From assembly GCA_036001065.1 (NCBI GenBank), contig DASYUQ010000004.1, forward strand, positions 1 through 35,494: 35,494 nucleotides of DNA, read 5' to 3'. Below the pieces are notes generated by a model, which was given only the letters and a program-made list of their open reading frames with translations, was not told where the DNA came from and ran no database searches. Within the stretch, counting starts at the first letter, position 1; every line of letters begins with the position of its first letter. The stretch is from Candidatus Methylomirabilota bacterium. GTDB lineage: Bacteria > Methylomirabilota > Methylomirabilia > Rokubacteriales > CSP1-6. Below, one piece after another: positions 19,973-32,327 of this stretch. The translations under genes were made by a program, and so were the position numbers.

Positions 19973-20446
19973 GTGAAACTGCCAGTCAAGATGACGATCA
20001 ATGGCCAGACCTACAGCCAGGACGTCGAGCCGCGTCTCCTCCTGGTCCACTACATCCGTGAGAACGCCGGTCTGACCGGCACCCACGTGGGATGCGACAC
20101 GAGCCAGTGCGGCGCCTGCACGATCTCGATGAACGGGCAGGCGGTCAAGTCCTGCACGCTCTTCGCCGTCCAGGCCGACGGCGCCTCGATCACCACCATC
20201 GAGGGGCTCGCCCGGAACGGGGACCTGCACCCGATCCAGCAGGGATTCTGGGAGAAACATGGGCTGCAGTGCGGGTTTTGCACGCCGGGCATGATCATGG
20301 CTGCCCAGCAGCTGCTCGAGCGCTATCCGCGTCCCACCGAGGAGCAGATCCGCCACCAGCTCGAGGGCAACCTCTGTCGCTGCACGGGCTACCACAACAT
20401 CGTCAAGGCCATCCAGTGGGCGGCGGAACAGATGGCGGGGAAGTGA
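19973..20446 (+). CDS. coxS: CoxS-like two-[2Fe-2S] subunit of a molybdenum hydroxylase
   Basis: A 157-aa electron-transfer subunit. The plant-type ferredoxin cluster is bound by Cys41, Cys46, Cys49 and Cys61 ([10 protein letters not shown] and SCT). The second cluster is bound by Cys100, Cys103, Cys135 and Cys137 (CGFC and CRC in [15 protein letters not shown]). It carries electrons from the molybdenum site of the large subunit to the FAD of the medium subunit. The GTG start at 19973 follows GGGGAGG at good distance. First gene of an S-L-M operon behind a TTGACA promoter. Members of this family also serve aldehyde, nicotinate and other hydroxylases. Confidence 0.92.
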
Positions 20447-20456
20447 GGGAATCGCC

Positions 20457-22817
20457 ATGGCAACGGCGACTCAAGAGCGACTGTTCGGCAAGTCGATCAA
20501 ACGCCGGGAGGATCCGCGCTTCATCACCGGCCGCGGCCAGTACGTGGACGACGTGAAGCTGCCGGGCCTGACCTACGCGGCGTTCGTCCGGAGCCCGCAC
20601 TCCCACGCCCGCATCCGGAGCATCAATGTGGCGAAGGCGAAGGGGATGCCCGGGGTCATCGCCGCGTACACGGGTAAGGACGTCCCGGTCGGCGCGCTGC
20701 CGTGCGGCTGGATGCTGCCCGGCATCAAAGTGCCTCAGCGGCCCGCCCTGGCCCAGGACAAGGTGCACTACGTGGGCGAGCCGGTCGCCATCGTCATCGG
20801 CGAGAACGCCTACGCCGCCAAGGATGCGGCCGAGGCGGTCCAGGTCGAGTACCAGGCGCTGCCGGCGGTGAGCAACCCCCGGAAGGCCCACGACCGGGGC
20901 GCTGCGCTGCTCTTCGACGACATTCCCCAGAACCAGTGCTTCTACTGGACCATCGGCGACAAGGCTTCGACCGACGCGGCCTTCACGGCCGCCGCCAAGG
21001 TCGTGAGCCAGCCCCTCATCAATCAGCGCCTCATCCCCAACGCCCTGGAGCCGCGGGCCTGCCTGGCCTCCTTCTCGCAGGCGACCGGCGAGCTGACGCT
21101 GTGGGTGACGTCGCAGAACCCGCACGTCCATCGCCTCCTGATGGCGGCGTTCATCCTCGGCATCCCGGAGACGAAGATGCGGGTGATCGCACCGGACGTG
21201 GGCGGCGGCTTCGGCTCGAAGATCTTCGTCTACAACGAGGAGGTGGTCGTTTCCTGGGCGTCGAGGACGCTCGCCCGGCCCGTGAAGTGGACGGCGGAGC
21301 GGCGCGAGAGCTTCATGAACGACGCTCACGGGCGCGACCACGTCACCGAGGCCGAGATGGCCTTCGACCGGGACGGCAAGATCACCGGCCTGCGCGTCAA
21401 GACCCACGCCAACCTCGGCGCCTATCTCTCGACGTTCGCTCCGCTCATTCCGTCCTATCTCTACGGCCCGCTGCTCTCGGGCGTCTACAAGATCCCCGCG
21501 ATCTTCTGTGAGGTCTGGGGGATGTTGACCAACACCGCGCCGGTGGACGCCTATCGGGGGGCCGGCCGGCCCGAGGCCACCTACCTGCTCGAGCGCATAA
21601 TGGACCGGGCGGCGCGCGAGCTGAACGTCGATCCCGCCGAGCTGCGGAGCCGGAACCTGATCCCGGCGTTCACCGACGGCACGCCCTACCAGACGCCGGT
21701 CGCCTTCGCCTACGACAGCGGCAACTACGGGCCGGCGCTGAAGCGCGCGCTGGAGAGCGCCGGCTACCCCCAGGTGAGGAAGGAGCAGGAGCAGGCGCGC
21801 AAGCAGGGACGCTACCTCGGCATCGGCGTGACGACGTACATCGAGGCGTGCGGTCCCGCGCCGTCCGCCGTGGCCGGCTCCCTGGGCGCGGGCGCCGGGC
21901 TCTGGGAGTCGGGCCAGGTCCGCGTCCATCCCGCCGGCGCGGTGACCGTGTTCACGGGCTCGCACTCCCACGGCCAGGGGCACGAGACGACGTTCGCCCA
22001 GTTGGTGGCCGACGAGCTGGGGATCCCCATGGAGCAGGTGGAGATCGTCCACGGCGACACCGCGCAGATCCCGTTCGGCATGGGCACCTACGGCAGCCGC
22101 TCGGCGTGCGTCGGCGGCAGTGCGATCTTCAGGTGTCTGGAGAAGATCAAGGACAAGGGGCGGAAGATCGCCGCGCATCTGCTGGAGGCGGGGGAGCAGG
22201 ACCTCGTCTTCGAGGACGGCAAGTGGTCGGTGAAGGGATCTCCCGGCAAGGCCAAGACGTGGGGCGAGGTGGCGCTGATGGCCTATCTGGCCCACAACAT
22301 CCCGCAGGGGATGGAGCCCGGGCTCGAGGCCACATCCTTCTACGACCCGTCGAACTTCACGTTCCCGTTCGGCGCCCACGTCGCCGTGGTCGACGTGGAT
22401 CCCGAGACCGGCACCGTGAAGCTCCTCAAGTACGTGGCCGTCGACGACGTCGGCCGCGTCATCAACCCGATGATCGTTGACGGCATGGTGCACGGCGGCA
22501 TCGCCCAGGGCGTGGGCCAGGCACTGTGGGAGCACGGCGTCTACGGTGACGACGGCCAGCTCCTGACGGCGACGATGATGGACTACGCGATGCCGAAGGC
22601 CGATCAGCTGCCGTCCTTTCAGACCGATCGCACCGTGACCCCCAGCCCGGTCAACCCCCTCGGCGTCAAGGGCGCGGGCGAGACCGGCACCATCGCATCC
22701 ACTCCCACGGTCGCCAACGCGGTCATCGACGCGCTGGCGCCGTTCGGCGTGGCCCACATCGACATGCCGCTGACGCCCGAGAAGATCTGGCGGGCCGTCA
22801 AGGCAGCGAAGAAATAG
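20457..22817 (+). CDS. coxL: CoxL-like molybdopterin subunit, form II (AYRGAGR)
   Basis: A 786-aa catalytic subunit of the xanthine oxidase family that binds molybdopterin cytosine dinucleotide. The N-terminal domain starts [23 protein letters not shown]. The Mo-binding segment VGGGFGSK is at about 248-255 and the conserved catalytic glutamate at 742 in KGAGETG. The active-site loop reads AYRGAGR (365-371). Form I enzymes, the proven CO dehydrogenases, have AYxCSFR with a copper-binding cysteine; that cysteine is missing here, so CO oxidation should not be assumed. A small aldehyde or another heterocyclic or carbonyl substrate is possible. It starts 10 bp after coxS and is followed by coxM after 12 bp. 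Confidence 0.92.
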
Positions 22818-22829
22818 GAGGCGCGCGCC

Positions 22830-23699
22830 ATGTACCCCGCTGCATTCGAGTACCACGCTCCGACCAGCGTCAAGGACGCGCTCGGGCTGCTGGGACGTCT
22901 CAAGGACGACGCCAAGCTCCTGGCCGGCGGCCACAGCCTGATCCCGATGATGAAGCTCCGGCTGGCGCAGCCCAAGCACCTCATCGACCTGCGCCGGGTG
23001 CCCGGCCTCAGCGGGATCAAGGAGGAGGGCGGCACCATCGTCATCGGCGCCATGACGACCCATTGGCAGGTGGAGTCCTCCACGCTGCTGAAGTCCAAGT
23101 GCGCGATCCTGTCGGAAACGGCGTCGGTCATCGGCGATCCCCAGGTGCGGAACCTGGGGACGTTCGGCGGCTCGCTCGCCCACGCCGATCCGGCGGCGGA
23201 TCAGCCGGCCACGATGATCGCCGTGGGCGGGGAGTTCGTGTGCGAAGGGTCCAAGGGCCGGCGCACGGTGAAGGTCGACGACTGGTTCAAGGGGCTCATG
23301 TCCACCGCGCTCGGGGACGACGAGATTCTCATAGAGATCCGGGTGCCGCTCTGGCCGGCGGGCAGCGGGGGCGCCTACATGAAGTTCCCCCATCCCGCGT
23401 CGCGCTTCGCCGTGGTCGGTGTCGCCGCCATGGTCACGCTGGACAAGGAGGGCAAGAGCACGAAGGCCAGCGTCGGCGTGACCGGCGCCGGGACGAAGGC
23501 CGTGAGGGCCAAGGGCGTGGAGGCGGCGCTGGTCGGCAAGAAGCTCGACGCCGCGACGATCGAGGCCGCCGCCCAGAAGGCGGCCGAGGGCGTCGACGTG
23601 CAGGCCGACCTCCAGGGGTCCGTCGAGTACAAGTCGCACCTCTGCCGCGTCTTCGCCAAGCGCGCGATCACCGAAGCGGTGAGACGCGCCCGCGGGTAG
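22830..23699 (+). CDS. coxM: CoxM-like FAD subunit of a molybdenum hydroxylase
   Basis: A 289-aa flavoprotein subunit. FAD-binding motifs are AGGHS (32-36) and TFGGSLAHADP (111-121), and IGDPQVRNLG precedes the latter, all typical of CoxM. The C-terminal CO_deh_flav_C-type domain begins near LDAATIEAAAQKAAEGVD and ends VFAKRAITEAVRRA. It passes electrons to the respiratory chain. GGAGG precedes the ATG. Last gene of S-L-M before a long perfect hairpin. Confidence 0.92.
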   Translation: MYPAAFEYHAPTSVKDALGLLGRLKDDAKLLAGGHSLIPMMKLRLAQPKHLIDLRRVPGLSGIKEEGGTIVIGAMTTHWQVESSTLLKSKCAILSETASVIGDPQVRNLGTFGGSLAHADPAADQPATMIAVGGEFVCEGSKGRRTVKVDDWFKGLMSTALGDDEILIEIRVPLWPAGSGGAYMKFPHPASRFAVVGVAAMVTLDKEGKSTKASVGVTGAGTKAVRAKGVEAALVGKKLDAATIEAAAQKAAEGVDVQADLQGSVEYKSHLCRVFAKRAITEAVRRARG

Positions 23700-23875: not shown

Positions 23876-24451
23876 GTGATCGCGGGAATCGTGCTGGCGG
23901 CGGGGTTTGCCCGCCGCATGGGCCGCCAAAAGCTCCTGCTCTCGCTCCGCGGCACGCCGATCGTCCGCCTCAGCGTCGAGGCGATTGCGCCTCACCTGGA
24001 GGACCTCGTCGTCGTCACCGGCCAGGACGAGGCGGCGGTACGCGAGGCCCTGGCCGGCCTGCCCGTTCGCTTCGCCAGGAATCCGCGTCCGCAGGACGGC
24101 CAGGGGTCCTCCATCGCCGTCGGCGTCCGGGCGCTCAAGCCGTGGACGCGCGCGGTCCTGGTCGCGCTCGGGGATCAGCCGCGGGTGCCGGCCGGCGTCG
24201 TCCCGGCGCTGCTGGCCGCCTGGACGCGCGGCGAGAAAGCCATCGTCGCGCCCGCCTATCGGGGCACGCAGGGCACGCCGGTGCTGTTCGCGGCGGAGGT
24301 CTTCGGGGAGCTGGCCGCTCTCAGCGGTGACGCCGGAGCGCGGGCCGTCGTCCAGGCCCGGCCCGAGCGCGTGGAGCTGGTCCACTTCGACGTGGCGATG
24401 CCGGCGGATGTCGACACGCCGGAGGACTACGCGAGGCTTCATGTACAATAG
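23876..24451 (+). CDS. mocA: MocA-like molybdenum cofactor cytidylyltransferase
   Basis: A 191-aa nucleotidyltransferase of the MobA/MocA fold. The N-terminal loop VLAAGFARRMGRQKLLL (7-23) binds the nucleotide; ALGDQPRVPAGVV carries the metal-binding aspartate, and GTQGTPVLFAAEVF and VDTPEDYARL complete the pattern. MocA makes the molybdopterin cytosine dinucleotide used by CoxL-type enzymes, which fits its place directly after coxSLM; MobA (GMP form) is less likely. The start is a GTG with no evident ribosome-binding site, chosen because IAGIVLAAG is the conserved beginning. Confidence 0.87.
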   Translation: MIAGIVLAAGFARRMGRQKLLLSLRGTPIVRLSVEAIAPHLEDLVVVTGQDEAAVREALAGLPVRFARNPRPQDGQGSSIAVGVRALKPWTRAVLVALGDQPRVPAGVVPALLAAWTRGEKAIVAPAYRGTQGTPVLFAAEVFGELAALSGDAGARAVVQARPERVELVHFDVAMPADVDTPEDYARLHVQ

Positions 24452-24457
24452 TGCCAC

Positions 24458-26737
24458 GTGCGCCACGAGATAAAGAAGATCCAGGAGCTGATGGAAGCGG
24501 CCGAGTACGTGACGGACGCTCCCATCGCCACCTCCGTCCACCTGGCCCTCGCGCTCGGTAAGCCGCTGCTCATCGAAGGCCACGCCGGCGTCGGCAAGAC
24601 CGAAGTGGCCAAGGTGATGGCGCGGATGCTGGGGACCAACCTCATCCGCCTGCAGTGCTACGAAGGGCTCGACGCCTCCACGGCGCTCTACGAGTGGAAC
24701 TACCAGAAGCAGCTCCTCCACATCAAGCTCACCGAGGAGTCGAACAGCCGGTCGGTGGGGGAGAAGGAGCACGAGATCTTCTCCGAGCCCTTCCTCCTGC
24801 GCCGCCCGCTGCTCCAGGCCATCAGCCAAGAGCATCGTGCTCCGGTCCTGTTGGTGGACGAGGTGGACCGCTGTGTGGCGGCTGACACGCTCATCACCAC
24901 CAGCTCGGGAGTAAAGAGAGCGCAAGACGTCCAAGCCGGAGACGAGTTGGTGAGCTTCGCCCCGGACGAGTTTCAGGCTGCTCGGGCCAGGGTGAGGAAG
25001 GTCATTCCCCGGACGGCGCCTTCCCTGCTTCAGATCCTGGTCGGCGGTCGTCTGCTCGAGGTCACCCCCGAGCATCGGTTCGTTCGCTATTCGGATGCTG
25101 GCTACGAAGTCGTCCAAGCGGCCGAGCTTCGGGTCGGGGATAGGATCCCGCTCCATAAGAACCTGCCGGAGACCGAGCCCGCAGAGCCGCGATTCGAGTT
25201 CGCCGACCAGATCGGCGTCTCGCGCAGTCATCTTCGAAATGTCATTCAACCCGTCTCCCCTCGTGACTCCCTTCGGGCCGGAGTCCTGGAGAAGTTGGTT
25301 CTCGAACTCGGGCCGAATGGTTCATTGACAAGCTCTGAAAACGGACACCGTGATGGTGTCTGCCAATCCGTTGCCTTTTACGAGCTGCTTGGATACATCG
25401 TCGCCGACGGCTGCTTCAGGAGTGCTCGCCTCTGCATCGCCGACAAGGATCGAGCGAATCTGGAGGTCTATGCCCGGAAGTTCGAGGAGGCTTTCGGGCA
25501 GCGCCCGAGAATCGTCAGAGGCCCGCACGAGAACTACGAGCTGACCTGCCATTCGCTCCCGCTGGGGCGTTTCCTCCGGCGGGTGTTGGGTCACGGGATG
25601 GTCCGCAGCCGGCCGCGTATGGTACCGGAGTTCGTCTTTTCGCTACCGCGGGCCAAGCGGGCGGGGTTCGTGCGAGGGTTTTTCGACGGCGAGGGCTGGG
25701 TTGGTGACCACCAAGTATCCGCCGCGTCGTCGTCGCGCTATCTGCTCGTCGGGATTCAATGTCTTTTGAGCTCGTTGGGAGTGGACAGTCACATCGTGAG
25801 GATGCGTACCCATCCCGGCAATTTCGGCAGGGGCCCGTTTTTCGCCCTGACGGCGTCGGACGTCGGGGCGTTTGTGAAGGCGGTCGGTTTCTGCTCGCCA
25901 GCAAAGCAGGCGCGCATCCAGCGTCCCCCGACTCGTCGGTTCACGCGGACGGAGACTCTGCCGCGGCAGCTCGTGGCGGCGGCCCTGAGCCCGATTCGGG
26001 GACGGGGGGTTCTGAATGGGATGCCATCCCATCAGACGGTGTACGACATCCTAGCTGGCCGGGTTCGTCCCAATGTGTCTTCGCTGCGGAAGATCGCTGG
26101 GTCCCTTCCTGCGCCCGAACTCGACGACTTGCTGCAGCGTGGTGTCGTCCTCGGCGAAGTGACGTCGATCGAGACGGTGGAGGGGCCACAAGCAGTCTAC
26201 GACTTCGTCATCGACGGCCATCCATACTTCGTCGCCAATCAGGTCGTCACCCACAATTGCGACGAAGAGTTCGAGGCCTTCATGCTGGAGGTCTTCTCCG
26301 ACTGGCAGGTGACGATCCCCGAGATCGGGACGATCAAGGCGACCCACCCGCCGCACGTCGTTTTGACGTCGAACCGCACGCGGGAACTCTCCGACGCGCT
26401 CAGGCGCCGCTGCCTGTACCTCTGGATCGACTATCCGAGCTTCGAGAAGGAGGTACGCATCGTCGAGCTCAAGGTGCCTGGCATCAACCATCGCATCGCC
26501 GTGCAGGTTGCGCGCTTCATGGAGGCCCTCCGCCGCGTGCGACTCAGCAAGGTGCCGGGGGTCGCCGAGGCCCTCGATTGGGCGCAGGCGCTCGTCTCGC
26601 TGCACGCCGACCACCTCGAGGAGGCGCTGGTCCACGAGACGCTCGGCGTCCTTCTCAAGGACGCCGATGACATGAAGCGCTTCCGCGCCGAGGTCGCCAA
26701 GAGCGGCCTCACCCCGTTCCTGCCCGCCCAGAGCTAG
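24458..26737 (+). CDS. coxD: CoxD-type MoxR AAA+ ATPase containing an intein
   Basis: A 759-aa precursor. The extein parts, residues 1-138 and 601-759, join to a 297-aa MoxR-family ATPase. Walker A is GHAGVGKT (41-48) and Walker B LLVDEVDR (131-138). The sensor region THPPHVVLTSNRTRELSDALRRRCLYLWIDYP follows the intein. CoxD-type ATPases, with a VWA partner, mature the metal centre of CoxL enzymes, consistent with coxSLM upstream and coxE downstream. Residues 139-600 are an intein inserted directly after Walker B, so the ATPase cannot work until splicing. Residue 601 is Cys, where intein-free homologues usually have Ala in DRADEEFEAF, as I recall. The start is GTG at 24458. The stop codon TAG lies inside MITE copy B. 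Confidence 0.93.
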   Translation: MRHEIKKIQELMEAAEYVTDAPIATSVHLALALGKPLLIEGHAGVGKTEVAKVMARMLGTNLIRLQCYEGLDASTALYEWNYQKQLLHIKLTEESNSRSVGEKEHEIFSEPFLLRRPLLQAISQEHRAPVLLVDEVDRCVAADTLITTSSGVKRAQDVQAGDELVSFAPDEFQAARARVRKVIPRTAPSLLQILVGGRLLEVTPEHRFVRYSDAGYEVVQAAELRVGDRIPLHKNLPETEPAEPRFEFADQIGVSRSHLRNVIQPVSPRDSLRAGVLEKLVLELGPNGSLTSSENGHRDGVCQSVAFYELLGYIVADGCFRSARLCIADKDRANLEVYARKFEEAFGQRPRIVRGPHENYELTCHSLPLGRFLRRVLGHGMVRSRPRMVPEFVFSLPRAKRAGFVRGFFDGEGWVGDHQVSAASSSRYLLVGIQCLLSSLGVDSHIVRMRTHPGNFGRGPFFALTASDVGAFVKAVGFCSPAKQARIQRPPTRRFTRTETLPRQLVAAALSPIRGRGVLNGMPSHQTVYDILAGRVRPNVSSLRKIAGSLPAPELDDLLQRGVVLGEVTSIETVEGPQAVYDFVIDGHPYFVANQVVTHNCDEEFEAFMLEVFSDWQVTIPEIGTIKATHPPHVVLTSNRTRELSDALRRRCLYLWIDYPSFEKEVRIVELKVPGINHRIAVQVARFMEALRRVRLSKVPGVAEALDWAQALVSLHADHLEEALVHETLGVLLKDADDMKRFRAEVAKSGLTPFLPAQS
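24872..26257 (+). mobile_element. Intein with LAGLIDADG homing endonuclease
   Basis: Codons 139-600 of the ATPase gene. Splicing motifs are complete: Cys1 in CVAADTLITTSSG (block A), VTPEHRF with the Thr-x2-His of block B (203-206 of the precursor), VYDFVIDGHPYFVANQVVTHN as blocks F and G ending His-Asn, and Cys as +1 residue. Two endonuclease motifs, LLGYIVADG (310-318, Asp317) and FVRGFFDGEG (404-413, Asp410/Glu412), keep acidic residues, so the enzyme may be active. Segments near 250-265 (DQIGVSRSHLRNVIQ) and 524-548 (SHQTVYDILAGRVRPNVSSLRKIAG) look like helix-turn-helix DNA-binding modules. The region has less strongly GC-biased codons than its host gene, suggesting transfer. Confidence 0.93.
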
Positions 26738-26823: not shown

Positions 26824-27972
26824 ATGGTCGCGCCGCGCGACCTCGGCAGCGCCATGGTCCGGTTCGCCGTGTTGTTGCGACAGCAGGGCGTTCCCGCCAC
26901 GCTGATCCAGGTGACCGATGCGGTGCGCGCCCTCGACCACGTGGACGTCGCGGATCGGGAGGAGCTTCGCCTCGCGCTCCGCACCGTCTTCGTCAGCCGG
27001 CTCGAGGAGATGGCGACTTTCGACCGCTGCTTCCAGTCCTTCTGGCGGGCGCAGCTGGAGGCGGCCGAGGGGATCCCGGGGCTGATCGCGGTGCCGCCCG
27101 CCGAGGAGGCCGACGCCTCCGCGCTGCTCAAGACCGGCGGCCAGAAGCGCGACACCCTGGCCCTGGAGACGTGGGGAGACGAGGGCGAGTCCGAGACCGG
27201 AGAACCGCTCGGCGTTCCCGGCGTCTCCGATCGCGAGGCGCTGGCCGGCCAGGACTTCGCGACCTTCACGGCCGACCAGCTGGACGAGGTCTTCCGCCTC
27301 ACGGTCCAGATCGCGCGCCGCCTGGCGCGCCGCCTGAGCCGGCGGCGGCGCCCCTTCGCCCGCCGGGGCCGCGTCGATCTCCGCCGGACGCTGCGGGCGA
27401 ACCTCAGCCGGGGCGACTTCATCGAGCTCCGGTACCGCCAACGGAAACGGCGGAAGGTGCGGCTGGTGCTCCTGTGCGACGTCTCGGGCTCGATGGACCT
27501 CTACAGCCGCTTCCTCCTGCAGTTCCTCTTCGCCATCCAGAGCGTCTTCGGCCGCGTGGAGACGTTCACCTTCTCGACGCGCCTGACGCGTGTCACCGAG
27601 CACCTGCGGGCGCGCTCCTACCGGCAGGTGCTGCGCCGCCTCACCGAGGTGCGGGACTGGTCGGGTGGCACGCGGATCGGAGAGTCCATCGCGCAGTTCA
27701 ACCGCGACTGGTCGCACCTGGTGGACCGCCAGACCATCGTCATCGTGGTCTCGGACGGGTGGGACACCGGCGAGCCGGAGGTGCTCGCCGCCGAGTTGCT
27801 GAGGATCAAGCGCCGCGCGGGACGGGTGATCTGGCTCAACCCGCTGCTCGGTAACCCTTCCTACGAGCCGCTCACGCGCGGGATGGCGGCGGCGCTGCCG
27901 CTGATCGACGACTTCGCCCCCGCCCACAATCTGAACGCCCTCCGCGACCTGGCTCGCAAGCTATCGCTGTAA
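26824..27972 (+). CDS. coxE: CoxE-type VWA domain protein
   Basis: A 382-aa protein with a variable N-terminal helical part (residues 1-180, with a Glu/Asp-rich stretch and a very Arg-rich stretch near 165-185) and a C-terminal von Willebrand factor A domain. The metal-ion-dependent adhesion site reads DVSGSM (219-224), supported by SGGTRIGESI and IVIVVSDGWDTGE. CoxE works with the CoxD ATPase as a MoxR-VWA chaperone pair in metal-centre maturation. The ATG at 26824 directly follows MITE copy B and the element supplies its upstream sequence; I see no Shine-Dalgarno there (AACGGCACTAG), so expression may be reduced. Confidence 0.88.
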   Translation: MVAPRDLGSAMVRFAVLLRQQGVPATLIQVTDAVRALDHVDVADREELRLALRTVFVSRLEEMATFDRCFQSFWRAQLEAAEGIPGLIAVPPAEEADASALLKTGGQKRDTLALETWGDEGESETGEPLGVPGVSDREALAGQDFATFTADQLDEVFRLTVQIARRLARRLSRRRRPFARRGRVDLRRTLRANLSRGDFIELRYRQRKRRKVRLVLLCDVSGSMDLYSRFLLQFLFAIQSVFGRVETFTFSTRLTRVTEHLRARSYRQVLRRLTEVRDWSGGTRIGESIAQFNRDWSHLVDRQTIVIVVSDGWDTGEPEVLAAELLRIKRRAGRVIWLNPLLGNPSYEPLTRGMAAALPLIDDFAPAHNLNALRDLARKLSL

Positions 27973-28445: not shown

Positions 28446-28527
28446 GACGCCGCAGGCGCGGGGCGTGACCCCGCGCATCGCGTCCGGCCGGCTCGCCGGT
28501 TTTCGTTTTGTTCTCCCGGAGCGTATG

Positions 28528-29646
28528 ATGTGGGATGCCATGGCGGAACTCTTCGATCACATTGACCAATTGCGGCGTTCCCGGGGACGGGTGGCGGTAG
28601 CGACCCTCGTCAACACCCGGGGCACCACCCCTCGGAAAGAAGGCGCCAAGATGCTCGTGGCCGAGGGGGGCGCCGTGCTGGGCTCCGTGACCATCGGGGG
28701 TTGCGTGGACGCCCAGGTCATCGAGGAGTCCGCGCGAGTACTGGAAACGATGCGTCCTCAGTTGCTCGAGTTGAATCTCGGTGACGAGGAGGCCTGGGAG
28801 ATCGGCCTCACGTGCGGCGGCACCATCGAAGTTTTCGTGGAGCCGCTCGCGCTCGATCACTATGAGCGGGTGCGCGCCCACGCCTCCGCCGGCGGCCACG
28901 GCGCGCTGGTGACCCGCCTGGATGATGCGGACGTCGCCGGCCGGAGGCTCCTCGTGCTGGACGATGGCACCGTCGAGGGCAGTCTGGGCGACGCCTTCCT
29001 CGACGAGCGTTTCGCGGCCGAGGCCCGCGAAGCGATTGCCCGCGGCACCTCGCAGACCCTCTTCATCGAGGGCCTCCGCGCCTTCGTGGAGGTGTTCGCG
29101 CCGCCGGCCCTGCTCGTCGTCGTCGGCGCCGGCCACGTCGCGATGCCGCTGACCGCGCTGGCCAAGAGCCTCGGCTACCGGACGGTGGTCCTGGACGGCC
29201 GCCCGCGGTTCGCCACGCGCGAGCGCTTTCCGGAGGTCGACGAGCTGCGGGTCGGCATCCCGTCGGAGCTGATCAAGAACTACGCGCTGACACCGGCGGC
29301 GGCCCTGGTCCTCGTCGCCCACGACTACAAGTACGACCTGCCCGTGCTGCGCTACGCCCTCGACACGCCCGTCGCCTACATCGGGATGCTGGGGTCGTCG
29401 CGCCGGGGCGCCACCATCTTGAAGTTCCTCAGCGAGGACGGCGCCAGCGACGCCCAGCTCAAGCGCGTGCGCGTCCCCATCGGGCTCGACCTGGGCGCTC
29501 GCAGCGCGCCCGAGATCGCGCTCGCCATCCTGGCCGAGATCCAGGCCGTGCGCGGCGGCGGCACCGGCCAGCCGCTCAGCATGGGTGTGCGAAGCCGCAG
29601 GGCGGCGGCGGGGCCGCAGGTCCGCCCGCCCGAGGCGAGCCTGTGA
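28528..29646 (+). CDS. XdhC/CoxF-type molybdenum enzyme maturation protein
   Basis: A 372-aa protein with an N-terminal XdhC/CoxI domain (VATLVNTRGTTPRKEGAKMLV, GSVTIGGCVDAQVIEES) and a C-terminal Rossmann-type XdhC_C domain (LLVVVGAGHVAMPLTALAKSLGYRTVVLDGRPRFATRERFP, HDYKYDLPVLRYAL, YIGMLGSSRRG). XdhC proteins bind molybdenum cofactor and help its sulfuration and insertion into xanthine-oxidase-family enzymes, here presumably the CoxL-like subunit. Adjacent ATGs at 28525 and 28528 share a GGAG; spacing favours the second slightly. The last 22 residues (MGVRSRRAAAGPQ and onward) come from a 40-bp sequence repeated just downstream and look like an addition to the normal C-terminus. Confidence 0.87.
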   Translation: MWDAMAELFDHIDQLRRSRGRVAVATLVNTRGTTPRKEGAKMLVAEGGAVLGSVTIGGCVDAQVIEESARVLETMRPQLLELNLGDEEAWEIGLTCGGTIEVFVEPLALDHYERVRAHASAGGHGALVTRLDDADVAGRRLLVLDDGTVEGSLGDAFLDERFAAEAREAIARGTSQTLFIEGLRAFVEVFAPPALLVVVGAGHVAMPLTALAKSLGYRTVVLDGRPRFATRERFPEVDELRVGIPSELIKNYALTPAAALVLVAHDYKYDLPVLRYALDTPVAYIGMLGSSRRGATILKFLSEDGASDAQLKRVRVPIGLDLGARSAPEIALAILAEIQAVRGGGTGQPLSMGVRSRRAAAGPQVRPPEASL

Positions 29647-29685
29647 TGGGTGTGCGAAGCCGCAGGGCGGCGGCGAGGCCGCAGG
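29581..29685 (+). repeat. 40-bp direct repeat at the end of the xdhC-like gene
   Basis: The segments 29581-29620 and 29646-29685 are identical except for one base (G/A at 29611/29676), offset by 65 bp. Each begins ATGGGTGTGCGAAGCCGCAG. The first encodes the C-terminal extension of the XdhC-like protein; the second begins at the ATG overlapping its stop codon. Confidence 0.85.
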
Positions 29686-29693
29686 CGGACTGA
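29646..29693 (+). CDS. 15-codon mini reading frame bridging two genes
   Basis: An ATG overlapping the upstream TGA as TGATG opens a frame, MGVRSRRAAARPQAD, whose own TGA overlaps the next ATG, again as TGATG. It therefore could pass ribosomes from the XdhC-like gene to the molybdopterin-binding gene. It most likely arose from the local duplication and need not have a peptide function. Confidence 0.35.
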   Translation: MGVRSRRAAARPQAD

Positions 29694-30733
29694 TGAAGGC
29701 CATCGCCCAGCGCCGGGACACCGCGACCGTCGAGACGCTGACGGGAACGGTGCTCTGCCACGACGTGCGGGACGCGGCGGGGAAGATCGTCGGCTCCAAG
29801 GGCGCGCGGCTCGACGCCGCCTCGGCCGCGGCCGTGCTGGCGGCCCACTGGGACGAGATTCACCTCCTGGCGATGGAGCCCGGCGATCTGCACGAGGAGG
29901 AGGCGGGCGGTCGCCTGGCCCGCGCCGTCACCGGCGAGGGCGTCGAGGTGAAGGGCTACAGCGGCGGGCAATGGACACTGGTGGCGACCGGGCGCGGGCT
30001 GCTCTCCATCGCGCGGGCGGCCCTGGCGGCGGTCAACGCCCAGGAAGGCGTCTCGGTGTTCACGCTGTTCGACGGGCAGCCCGTCGAGCCGGGCGAGACG
30101 GTCGGCAAGGCGAAGGTGACGCCGCTGGTCATCGCCGAGCAGACCATCGTCTCCGTGAAACGGACGGCGCGAGCGGCGGGGGGGCTCCTCGCGGTGGAGA
30201 GCTTCCGTCCGACGACGGTCGGCGCCGTCGCCCGCGAGAACCTCGACGCCAAGCAGCGCGCCCGCTTCGAGGCCGCGCTCAAGCAGAAGATCGACTGGTT
30301 CGGCGGCCGGCTGCTGGCGATCCGTTATGCCGGCGCCTCGCCGCGCGCGGTCGCCGACGAACTGCTGGCCCTCCAACGCGAGGGGGCCGAGCTGCTGATC
30401 GTGGCCGGCGCCAGCGCGCTCGATCCCCTCGATCCCGTCTTCGGCGGCCTCGAGCTGCTCGGCGCGCGGATGGAGCGCCACGGCGCCCCAGCGCATCCCG
30501 GCAGCCTCCTCTGGGTCGCGCGCTGGGAAGGGGCGCCCGTCCTCGGGATGCCGACGTGCGGGATGTTTTCCCAGGCCACGACCTTCGACCTTGTCCTCCC
30601 GCGGATCCTGACGGGAGAGTCGATCGGCAATCGCGAGCTGGCGGAGCTCGGTCACGGAGGCCTGCTCTCGCGCGAGATGGCGTATCGCTTCCCGCCGTAC
30701 CGCGCCAGCGCCGCGCGTGGGGAGCTCGAATGA
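29693..30733 (+). CDS. Molybdopterin-binding protein, MoeA/MoaB-like
   Basis: A 346-aa protein. The N-terminal half (TLTGTVLCHDVRDAAGKIVGSKGARLD, then VTGEGVEVKGYSGGQWTLVA) resembles a MoeA-like or molybdopterin-binding scaffold. The C-terminal half (ELLIVAGASALDPLDPVFGGLELLGA, HPGSLLWVARWEGAPVLGMPTCGMFSQATTFDLVLPRILTGE) is the MoCF-type domain that binds molybdopterin. It is commonly near CO-dehydrogenase-like operons and probably helps prepare the cofactor for CoxL. Substrate residues typical of MoeA are not obvious, so adenylyl-molybdopterin chemistry is not assured. Start and stop both overlap neighbours. Confidence 0.75.
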   Translation: MKAIAQRRDTATVETLTGTVLCHDVRDAAGKIVGSKGARLDAASAAAVLAAHWDEIHLLAMEPGDLHEEEAGGRLARAVTGEGVEVKGYSGGQWTLVATGRGLLSIARAALAAVNAQEGVSVFTLFDGQPVEPGETVGKAKVTPLVIAEQTIVSVKRTARAAGGLLAVESFRPTTVGAVARENLDAKQRARFEAALKQKIDWFGGRLLAIRYAGASPRAVADELLALQREGAELLIVAGASALDPLDPVFGGLELLGARMERHGAPAHPGSLLWVARWEGAPVLGMPTCGMFSQATTFDLVLPRILTGESIGNRELAELGHGGLLSREMAYRFPPYRASAARGELE

Positions 30734-31122
30734 GCACGGCGGGGACGGCCCGCCTCCGGCCGGCGCTCTATGGCGACGTCATCCGGCAACGCTGGCGCCA
30801 GCCCCGCTTCCGCGGCGAGCTGGCCGAGGCCAATGCGGTGGCCGAGGACGTCAACCCTCTGTGCGGCGATCGGGTGCGGATGATGCTCAAGGTCGACGAC
30901 GGAACGATTCGGGCCGCCCGCTTCCTGGGTGACTCCTGCGCGATCTGTACGGCATCAGCCGACGTCCTCGCCGAGCTGATCCAGGGCAGGCCGACCCGGG
31001 CCGCGCGCGTCGGCCCGGCCGACCTGCTCGACGTGCTGCAGGTGGACATCCGTCCCACCCGGATGCGCTGCGTGACGCTGCCGCTCTCGGTGCTGGACCA
31101 GGCGCTCGGGAAGGTCGGATGA
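30730..31122 (+). CDS. sufU: SufU/IscU-type iron-sulfur scaffold or sulfur relay protein
   Basis: A 130-aa NifU-N-domain protein with the three conserved cysteines and the aspartate: Cys45-x-Asp47 (NPLCGDRV), Cys70 (GDSCAICTASADVL) and Cys114 (RMRCVTLPL). Cys73 is an extra cysteine. SufU binds zinc through these and receives sulfur from SufS, whose gene follows with an ATGA overlap. The 44-residue distance from Cys70 to Cys114 is close to that of IscU and shorter than in Bacillus SufU, which has an insertion there, as I recall. Arg113 precedes the last cysteine as in SufU, not the His of IscU. The name is therefore given with reserve. Confidence 0.8.
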   Translation: MSTAGTARLRPALYGDVIRQRWRQPRFRGELAEANAVAEDVNPLCGDRVRMMLKVDDGTIRAARFLGDSCAICTASADVLAELIQGRPTRAARVGPADLLDVLQVDIRPTRMRCVTLPLSVLDQALGKVG

Positions 31123-32327
31123 GGCTCGACGAGCTGACGCGCCCGGACTTTCCGATCCTGGAGCGGATCGTCAACGGCCACCCGCTCGTCTATCTGGACT
31201 CGGCCGCCTCGAGCCAGAAGCCGCGCACCGTGATCGAGGCGATGGCCCGCTACTACGAGCGCACCCACGCCAACGTTCACCGCTCGATCCACACGCTCGG
31301 CGAGGAGGCCACGGAGCTCTACGAGGCCGCCCGCGACCGCGTCCAGCGGTTCATCGGCGCCGCCCATCGCGAGGAAGTCGTGCTCACGCGAGGGACGACC
31401 GACGGGCTCAACCTCATCGCCGACGCCCTCGGCCGCACGCTCCGGGCCGGGGACGAGATCCTCATCACGGAGATGGAGCACCACTCGAACATCATTCCTT
31501 GGCAGATGGCGGCGCGTGCTCGCGGTGCGGTGGTCAAGGCCGTTCCGGTGGTGGGGGAGGGAGTCCTCGATCTCGACGCCCTCGACCGGCTCCTCACGGA
31601 TCGCACGCGGGTCGTGGCCGTGGCGCACGTCTCCAACGTGCTGGGCACGATCAACCCGATCGCTGCGATCGGCGCCCGGGTGCGAGCGGCCGGGGCGCTC
31701 AGCGTCGTGGACGGGGCTCAAGCCGCGCCTCATATGCCGCTCGATATTCCAGCGCTGAACTGCGACTTTTACGTGTTCTCCGGCCACAAGATGCTGGGGC
31801 CGACCGGGGTGGGCGTGCTCTGGGGCCGCCGCGAGGTGCTGGAGCGCCTCGAACCCACCCGGGGCGGTGGCGAGATGATCAAGGAGGTGTGGCTCGACCG
31901 CGCCCAGTGGAACGATCTGCCCTGGCGGTTCGAGCCCGGTACCCCGCCCATCGCCGAAGCGGTTGGGCTGACGGCGGCCATCGAATATCTAGAAAAACTG
32001 GGGATGGAGCGAGTGGCGGAGCACGAGTGTCAGCTCGCACAGCAGGCGGCCGAGGTGCTGGCCGCGACTCCGGACGTGAGCGTCTACGGCCCCCGGGAGC
32101 GCGGGGCGGTGGTGGCGTTCAGCGTCGCGGGCCTGCATCCTCACGACGTGGCCGCATTGCTCGACGCCGAAGGCATCGCCGTGAGGGCCGGTCACCACTG
32201 CGCCCAGCCCCTGATGCGCCGGCTCGGCGTGGTGGGGACGTCGCGGGCGAGCTTCTCGGTCTTCAACTCGCCCGAGGAGGTCGCGCTGCTCGCCTCCACC
32301 GTGGCCGACCTTTCCTCCGGGCTCTGA
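31119..32327 (+). CDS. sufS: SufS-type cysteine desulfurase
   Basis: A 402-aa pyridoxal-phosphate enzyme releasing sulfur from cysteine as a protein persulfide. The N-terminus FPILERIVNGHPLVYLDSAASSQKP is the SufS start; EMEHHSNIIPWQ and VVDGAQAAPHMPLD are cofactor-binding segments. PLP binds Lys224 in SGHKMLGPTG, and the catalytic Cys361 lies in RAGHHCAQPLM. It overlaps sufU upstream (ATGA) and the agmatinase-like gene downstream (TGATG). With SufU it could supply sulfur for the clusters of CoxS and PqqE; a role in cofactor sulfuration with the XdhC-like protein is possible. Confidence 0.93.
   Translation: MRLDELTRPDFPILERIVNGHPLVYLDSAASSQKPRTVIEAMARYYERTHANVHRSIHTLGEEATELYEAARDRVQRFIGAAHREEVVLTRGTTDGLNLIADALGRTLRAGDEILITEMEHHSNIIPWQMAARARGAVVKAVPVVGEGVLDLDALDRLLTDRTRVVAVAHVSNVLGTINPIAAIGARVRAAGALSVVDGAQAAPHMPLDIPALNCDFYVFSGHKMLGPTGVGVLWGRREVLERLEPTRGGGEMIKEVWLDRAQWNDLPWRFEPGTPPIAEAVGLTAAIEYLEKLGMERVAEHECQLAQQAAEVLAATPDVSVYGPRERGAVVAFSVAGLHPHDVAALLDAEGIAVRAGHHCAQPLMRRLGVVGTSRASFSVFNSPEEVALLASTVADLSSGL

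Follow-up and report, generated by a model that had tools for sequence, protein, structure and literature searches.

Is the long insertion in a CoxD-like MoxR ATPase gene of an uncultured bacterium an intein, and if so, is it a mobile element that is tolerated by its host or a switch that its host uses? The window, i.e. the whole stretch of 35,494 nucleotides that was analysed, contains a 759-aa open reading frame (24458-26737, plus strand) with a GTG start and an uninterrupted reading frame, in which the ATPase is split three residues past its Walker B glutamate. Taken together, the evidence makes it very probable that a class 1 LAGLIDADG homing-endonuclease intein has colonised one site of this ATPase in Rokubacteria, splices and has spread by homing. 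The copy in the window is most likely a splicing-competent selfish element. Coordinates are compiled in Table 1.

Table 1. Features of the interrupted ATPase gene and of the surrounding operon, in positions of the window.
Feature	Position	Strand	Basis or remark
N-extein, 138 aa (ORF residues 1-138)	24458..24871	+	CoxD/MoxR-type AAA+ ATPase; Walker A EGHAGVGKT, Walker B LLVDE; ends LLVDEVDR
Intein, 462 aa, Cys1 to Asn462 (ORF residues 139-600)	24872..26257	+	Pfam, structure, empty sites, GC3
Hint N-terminal half, intein residues 1-97	24872..25162	+	Cys1, block B T65-P-E-H68; pLDDT >90 mostly
HTH-like DNA-recognition segment remnant, intein residues 109-161	25196..25354	+	29 residues (87 nt) missing
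LAGLIDADG motif 1 region YELLGYIVADGCF, acidic D179	25379..25417	+	Sequence, alignment of copies
LAGLIDADG motif 2 region RAGFVRGFFDGEGWV, acidic E274	25655..25702	+	Sequence, alignment of copies
Hint C-terminal half, intein residues 425-462	26144..26257	+	Block F D444, block G His461-Asn462
C-extein, 159 aa plus stop (ORF residues 601-759)	26258..26737	+	Starts CDEEFEAF, +1 nucleophile Cys601
CoxS	19973-20446	+	Upstream operon gene
CoxL form II	20457-22817	+	AYRGAGR loop; upstream operon gene
CoxM	22830-23699	+	Upstream operon gene
MocA-like NTP transferase	23876-24451	+	Upstream operon gene
CoxE-like VWA protein	26824-27972	+	Downstream operon gene
XdhC-family maturation factor	28465-29646	+	Downstream operon gene

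The insertion opens with a Cys directly after LLVDEVDR and closes with VVTHN, followed by CDEEFEAF. In intein numbering its splicing residues are Cys1, TPEH in block B, D444 in block F, the terminal His461-Asn462 and Cys+1, which comprise all sequence marks of class 1 (a nucleophile at position 1, TxxH, the block F Asp, a His-Asn end and Cys, Ser or Thr at +1). These residues are invariant across 16 copies except for Thr65, which is Ser in two; Cys1, E67 and H68 are unchanged in all 16. Two LAGLIDADG motifs, LLGYIVADG and FVRGFFDGEG, each retain the acidic residue (D179 and E274, respectively). A sequence-only reading of the locus had described a 462-residue insertion with all splicing elements and two such motifs, and its boundaries are correct to the base. 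The GC content at third codon positions is 0.73 in the intein compared to 0.92 in both exteins. The predicted Hint and LAGLIDADG domains are both recovered above curated Pfam cutoffs (Intein_splicing, PF14890, 41.7 bits, cutoff 35.8; LAGLIDADG_3, 55.5 bits, cutoff 22.5); the intein N-terminal profile TIGR01445 scores 15.7 bits, under its cutoff of 24.5.

An AlphaFold model built from 13 aligned intein copies has an overall pLDDT of 79.8, with values mostly above 90 in the Hint parts and below 50 for residues 109-161. Among solved structures, HEN-containing inteins have the closest folds, with TliVMA (7qss) as the best Foldseek match (E 3e-24) and PI-PfuI and PI-SceI also found. Like the LAGLIDADG VMA inteins (TliVMA 7qss/7qsu, PhoVMA 7qst, PI-SceI), the window intein has a two-motif LAGLIDADG nuclease set into its Hint domain, but it shares only about 17% identity with them, resides in another host protein at another site and carries HTH-like accessory segments.

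With CoxD of Afipia carboxidovorans pHCG3 the exteins share 57% (N) and 54% (C) identity, and the alignment breaks exactly at LLIDEVDR/ADEEFEAF, where the CoxD site is empty. As Walker B of CoxD has been placed at V130-E135 (PMC3471820), the insertion point is three residues past the catalytic Glu. About 30 orthologues of the same phylum are likewise empty at this point, with boundaries exact to the residue, which bears out the earlier placement of the insertion after LLVDEVDR, behind Walker B; an alignment of intein-free CoxD proteins across position 138/601 had been suggested as a check. A permanent, unspliced domain of an ATPase subfamily would be in line with the single continuous reading frame. 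We regard it as barely credible, since empty-site orthologues with exteins 80-87% identical lack exactly that stretch, the insertion has Hint and LAGLIDADG folds and its distribution is scattered.

The assignment of the host as CoxD-type holds with regard to the Walker A and B motifs, the similarity to CoxD and the gene order with a CoxE-like VWA gene. In Afipia (Oligotropha) carboxidovorans CoxE-like VWA and XdhC-like genes follow coxD as they follow the ATPase gene in the window; there, however, CoxD has no intein and serves CO dehydrogenase, whereas the active-site loop of the window CoxL reads AYRGAGR. We take AYRGAGR to be the form-II loop and AYxCSFR that of form I; on account of this loop a form-I CO dehydrogenase operon was rejected, and a CO-oxidising role is not established. 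Against TIGR02416 the window CoxL scores 776 bits, under the cutoff of 991. Of the proposed CO-dehydrogenase-like operon, the CoxD/CoxE/XdhC-type gene order thus stands, but CoxL is of form II and the operon does not represent a proven CO dehydrogenase. An assignment to the MadB ATPase (NF047784) was rejected, with 253 bits for the protein with intein and 285 for an empty orthologue at a cutoff of 475. From gene order and CoxD similarity, the most likely role of the host protein is that of an ATPase working with a VWA partner in the maturation of a form-II Mo hydroxylase. The order of the operon genes is the same in intein-occupied and empty relatives. Beyond the operon lies a 490-aa open reading frame (29650-31122) whose NifU_N domain is confined to the last 120 residues. 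A class V aminotransferase gene (31119-32327) comes next, and the two may form an Fe-S assembly pair.

We infer from the conserved residues that the 759-aa precursor would splice autocatalytically. An acyl shift at Cys1, aided by Thr65 and His68, would be followed by transfer to Cys+1 (Cys601) and by cyclisation of Asn462, aided by His461; ligation would then yield a predicted product of 297 aa, an ATPase whose Walker B region is no longer interrupted. The nuclease of the intein is predicted to cleave empty alleles, and gene conversion would then spread the element.

The sequence-only reading had called the intein complete. This is true for splicing, which is probably intact in the window copy, and probably not for homing. 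In the HTH-like segment the window copy, alone among the full-length ones, is 87 nt (29 aa) short, with the frame kept; HTH_31/HTH_3 match there in relatives, and the window copy has no HTH match there. The DNA-recognition regions of its nuclease are less intact than in the closest relatives, and the deletion has probably weakened homing. Accessory DNA-contact regions and nuclease degeneration are known from VMA inteins (PMC8966425). The same deletion, the low-confidence model of residues 109-161 around it and a distant intein-free paralogue of the ATPase (on G000:C1) could also point to an intein that is dead or splices poorly, leaving the ATPase an effectively broken gene in this genome. This is very unlikely given that no splicing residue is missing, that pLDDT is mostly above 90 in the Hint parts, that both exteins are intact and conserved and that the reading frame is maintained in every copy. 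The G012 copy (L036), which is about 29 residues short in its second HTH-like segment and has DGEAW in its second LAGLIDADG motif, perhaps also encodes a degenerating nuclease.

A strong match to the ATPase was found in 48 of 57 genomes of the window's family. The intein occupies the identical site in 17 Rokubacteria genomes, of which 16 belong to this family (including G022 and G026, whose copies are cut by contig ends) and one, G036, to another. A naturally split gene in G022 and G026 was rejected because the breaks fall at contig ends. All records behind occupied and empty loci, where named, are Candidatus Rokubacteria MAGs, so that binning or assembly may distort some of the presence/absence calls. 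A motif scan of 84,980 species found no close copies outside Rokubacteria MAGs, although more divergent alleles could escape it. A phage or plasmid vector found no support, as no close intein occurs in viral contigs, phages or plasmids. At one locus (L014, G026:C69, 538-2109) the frame first passes through an empty site (DECDR/SDEEFEAFMLEIFS); the upstream stretch then recurs and leads into the intein (DECDR/C). Such a structure may stem from an assembly that joined an empty to an occupied allele, or from genuine recombination, and is a hint that the two alleles occur together in one population.

Mapped onto the extein tree, intein presence requires at least 11 state changes, in which gains and losses are not distinguishable, compared to 12.6 for shuffled labels; at least nine are forced by the starred branches alone. 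The intein tree is incongruent with the extein tree. G036, outermost by its extein, groups by its intein with G079 and genus g9 inside a supported clade. The closest inteins to that of the window are found in G077 and G017 (68%), whereas the closest extein among occupied genomes is that of G012 (86%). In the sister genomes G028 and G077 4-fold sites differ by 7% in the intein versus 27.5% in the extein (p=5.5e-8), and DNA differences amount to 52/1473 over the intein versus 270/2437 in the flanks (p=2e-18). Judged from these alignments, this shows a recent transfer of the intein alone. Other genome pairs have a higher silent-site divergence in the intein than in the extein, as expected if close hosts acquired different copies. 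The LAGLIDADG part, with dN/dS values mostly of 0.08-0.17 and of 0.43 in one near-identical pair, is by this measure under purifying selection. Tree comparisons and silent sites thus show, at the level of the intein family and not of the window copy as such, that the element was repeatedly gained or lost and moved horizontally.

In the C-extein, the +1 residue is Cys in 16/16 scored occupied alleles and in only 2 of 29 empty ones (Fisher p=2.4e-10), the remainder being Ser (11), Ala (10), Gly (5) and Val (1). Among all extein columns this position has the strongest association with intein presence, and a tree-corrected sign test on tree-independent pairs gives a median p=0.008. Either the codon is carried by homing co-conversion or only Cys alleles can retain the intein. 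The two empty alleles with Cys, in G031 (L018) and G032 (L013), may be scars of intein loss.

It had also been speculated that splicing acts as a switch on enzyme maturation through the redox state of Cys1 and Cys+1. Any Cys/Cys intein uses these two residues as its normal nucleophiles. In its general form the idea is that conditional splicing, sensing redox state via this pair or a metal, gates the ATPase and hence maturation of the Mo hydroxylase. We consider it improbable; just as doubtful is a MoaA-like switch on the maturation ATPase that would make Mo-hydroxylase maturation depend on redox- or metal-sensing splicing. The location would suit a switch, as an insertion three residues past Walker B probably leaves the precursor inactive, and it is plausible that the unspliced ATPase is unable to hydrolyse ATP. 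Precedents are the redox trap of the MoaA intein in the molybdopterin pathway, formed with an N-extein Cys (PMC10663303), and the mycobacterial DnaB intein as an oxidative sensor (PMC6195587). The MoaA intein of Pyrococcus abyssi and the SufB intein of Mycobacterium tuberculosis, for which a redox response has been reported, also reside in proteins of cofactor or metal-centre biogenesis; their hosts, however, are unrelated to the window ATPase, and the MoaA trap requires an N-extein Cys that is absent here. In the window position -3 is Val and the nearest N-extein Cys is about 70 residues away, so that a MoaA-like trap was rejected. Cys occupies -3 in only 1/16 occupied copies, and not all Cys inteins show redox inhibition (PMC6195587). 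Moreover, most relatives have the same operon without the intein, and the near-random gain or loss among close relatives is in line with a parasite rather than a conserved switch. With the trap Cys absent, Cys1 and Cys+1 accounted for as the catalytic pair and a patchy presence, the switch proposal gained no specific support. Among the full-length occupied alleles, Cys at -3 is found only in L060 (G061, DECDR/C), whose arrangement comes closest to the MoaA trap and which would be a better redox candidate than the window copy.

Returning to the mobile, splicing intein, this kind of element is well known, whereas its host protein and insertion site are apparently new. In the open-licence literature no intein was found described for MoxR or CoxD proteins, nor for Rokubacteria, consistent with the earlier statement that none was known in the maturation ATPase of a CO-dehydrogenase-like operon; novelty is provisional. 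Inteins in ATP-binding motifs include the P-loop inteins of RecA and DnaB and TerL1-e in Walker B of a mycobacteriophage terminase (PMC5050341). Like the window intein, they interrupt a P-loop ATPase at its catalytic core, but their hosts act in DNA replication, repair or packaging. The MoxR-type AAA+ maturation ATPase thus adds an insertion site beyond the usual replication, repair and nucleotide-metabolism hosts. Across close relatives, alleles with and without the intein, nucleases that look active or are degenerate and a strict footprint of Cys at +1 form a natural series, a good system for studying homing dynamics in uncultured bacteria and whether splicing ever influences cofactor maturation.

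The same genome also contains an NrdJ-like B12-dependent ribonucleotide reductase gene (G000:C33, L004, 571-3912, plus strand) with two inteins. The second is a mini-intein (EATNP/C...GYISRG/CGEQP) with a terminal Gly instead of Asn; this Gly is also found in the genus-mate G001 (97% identical), and other relatives have Asn or Gln.
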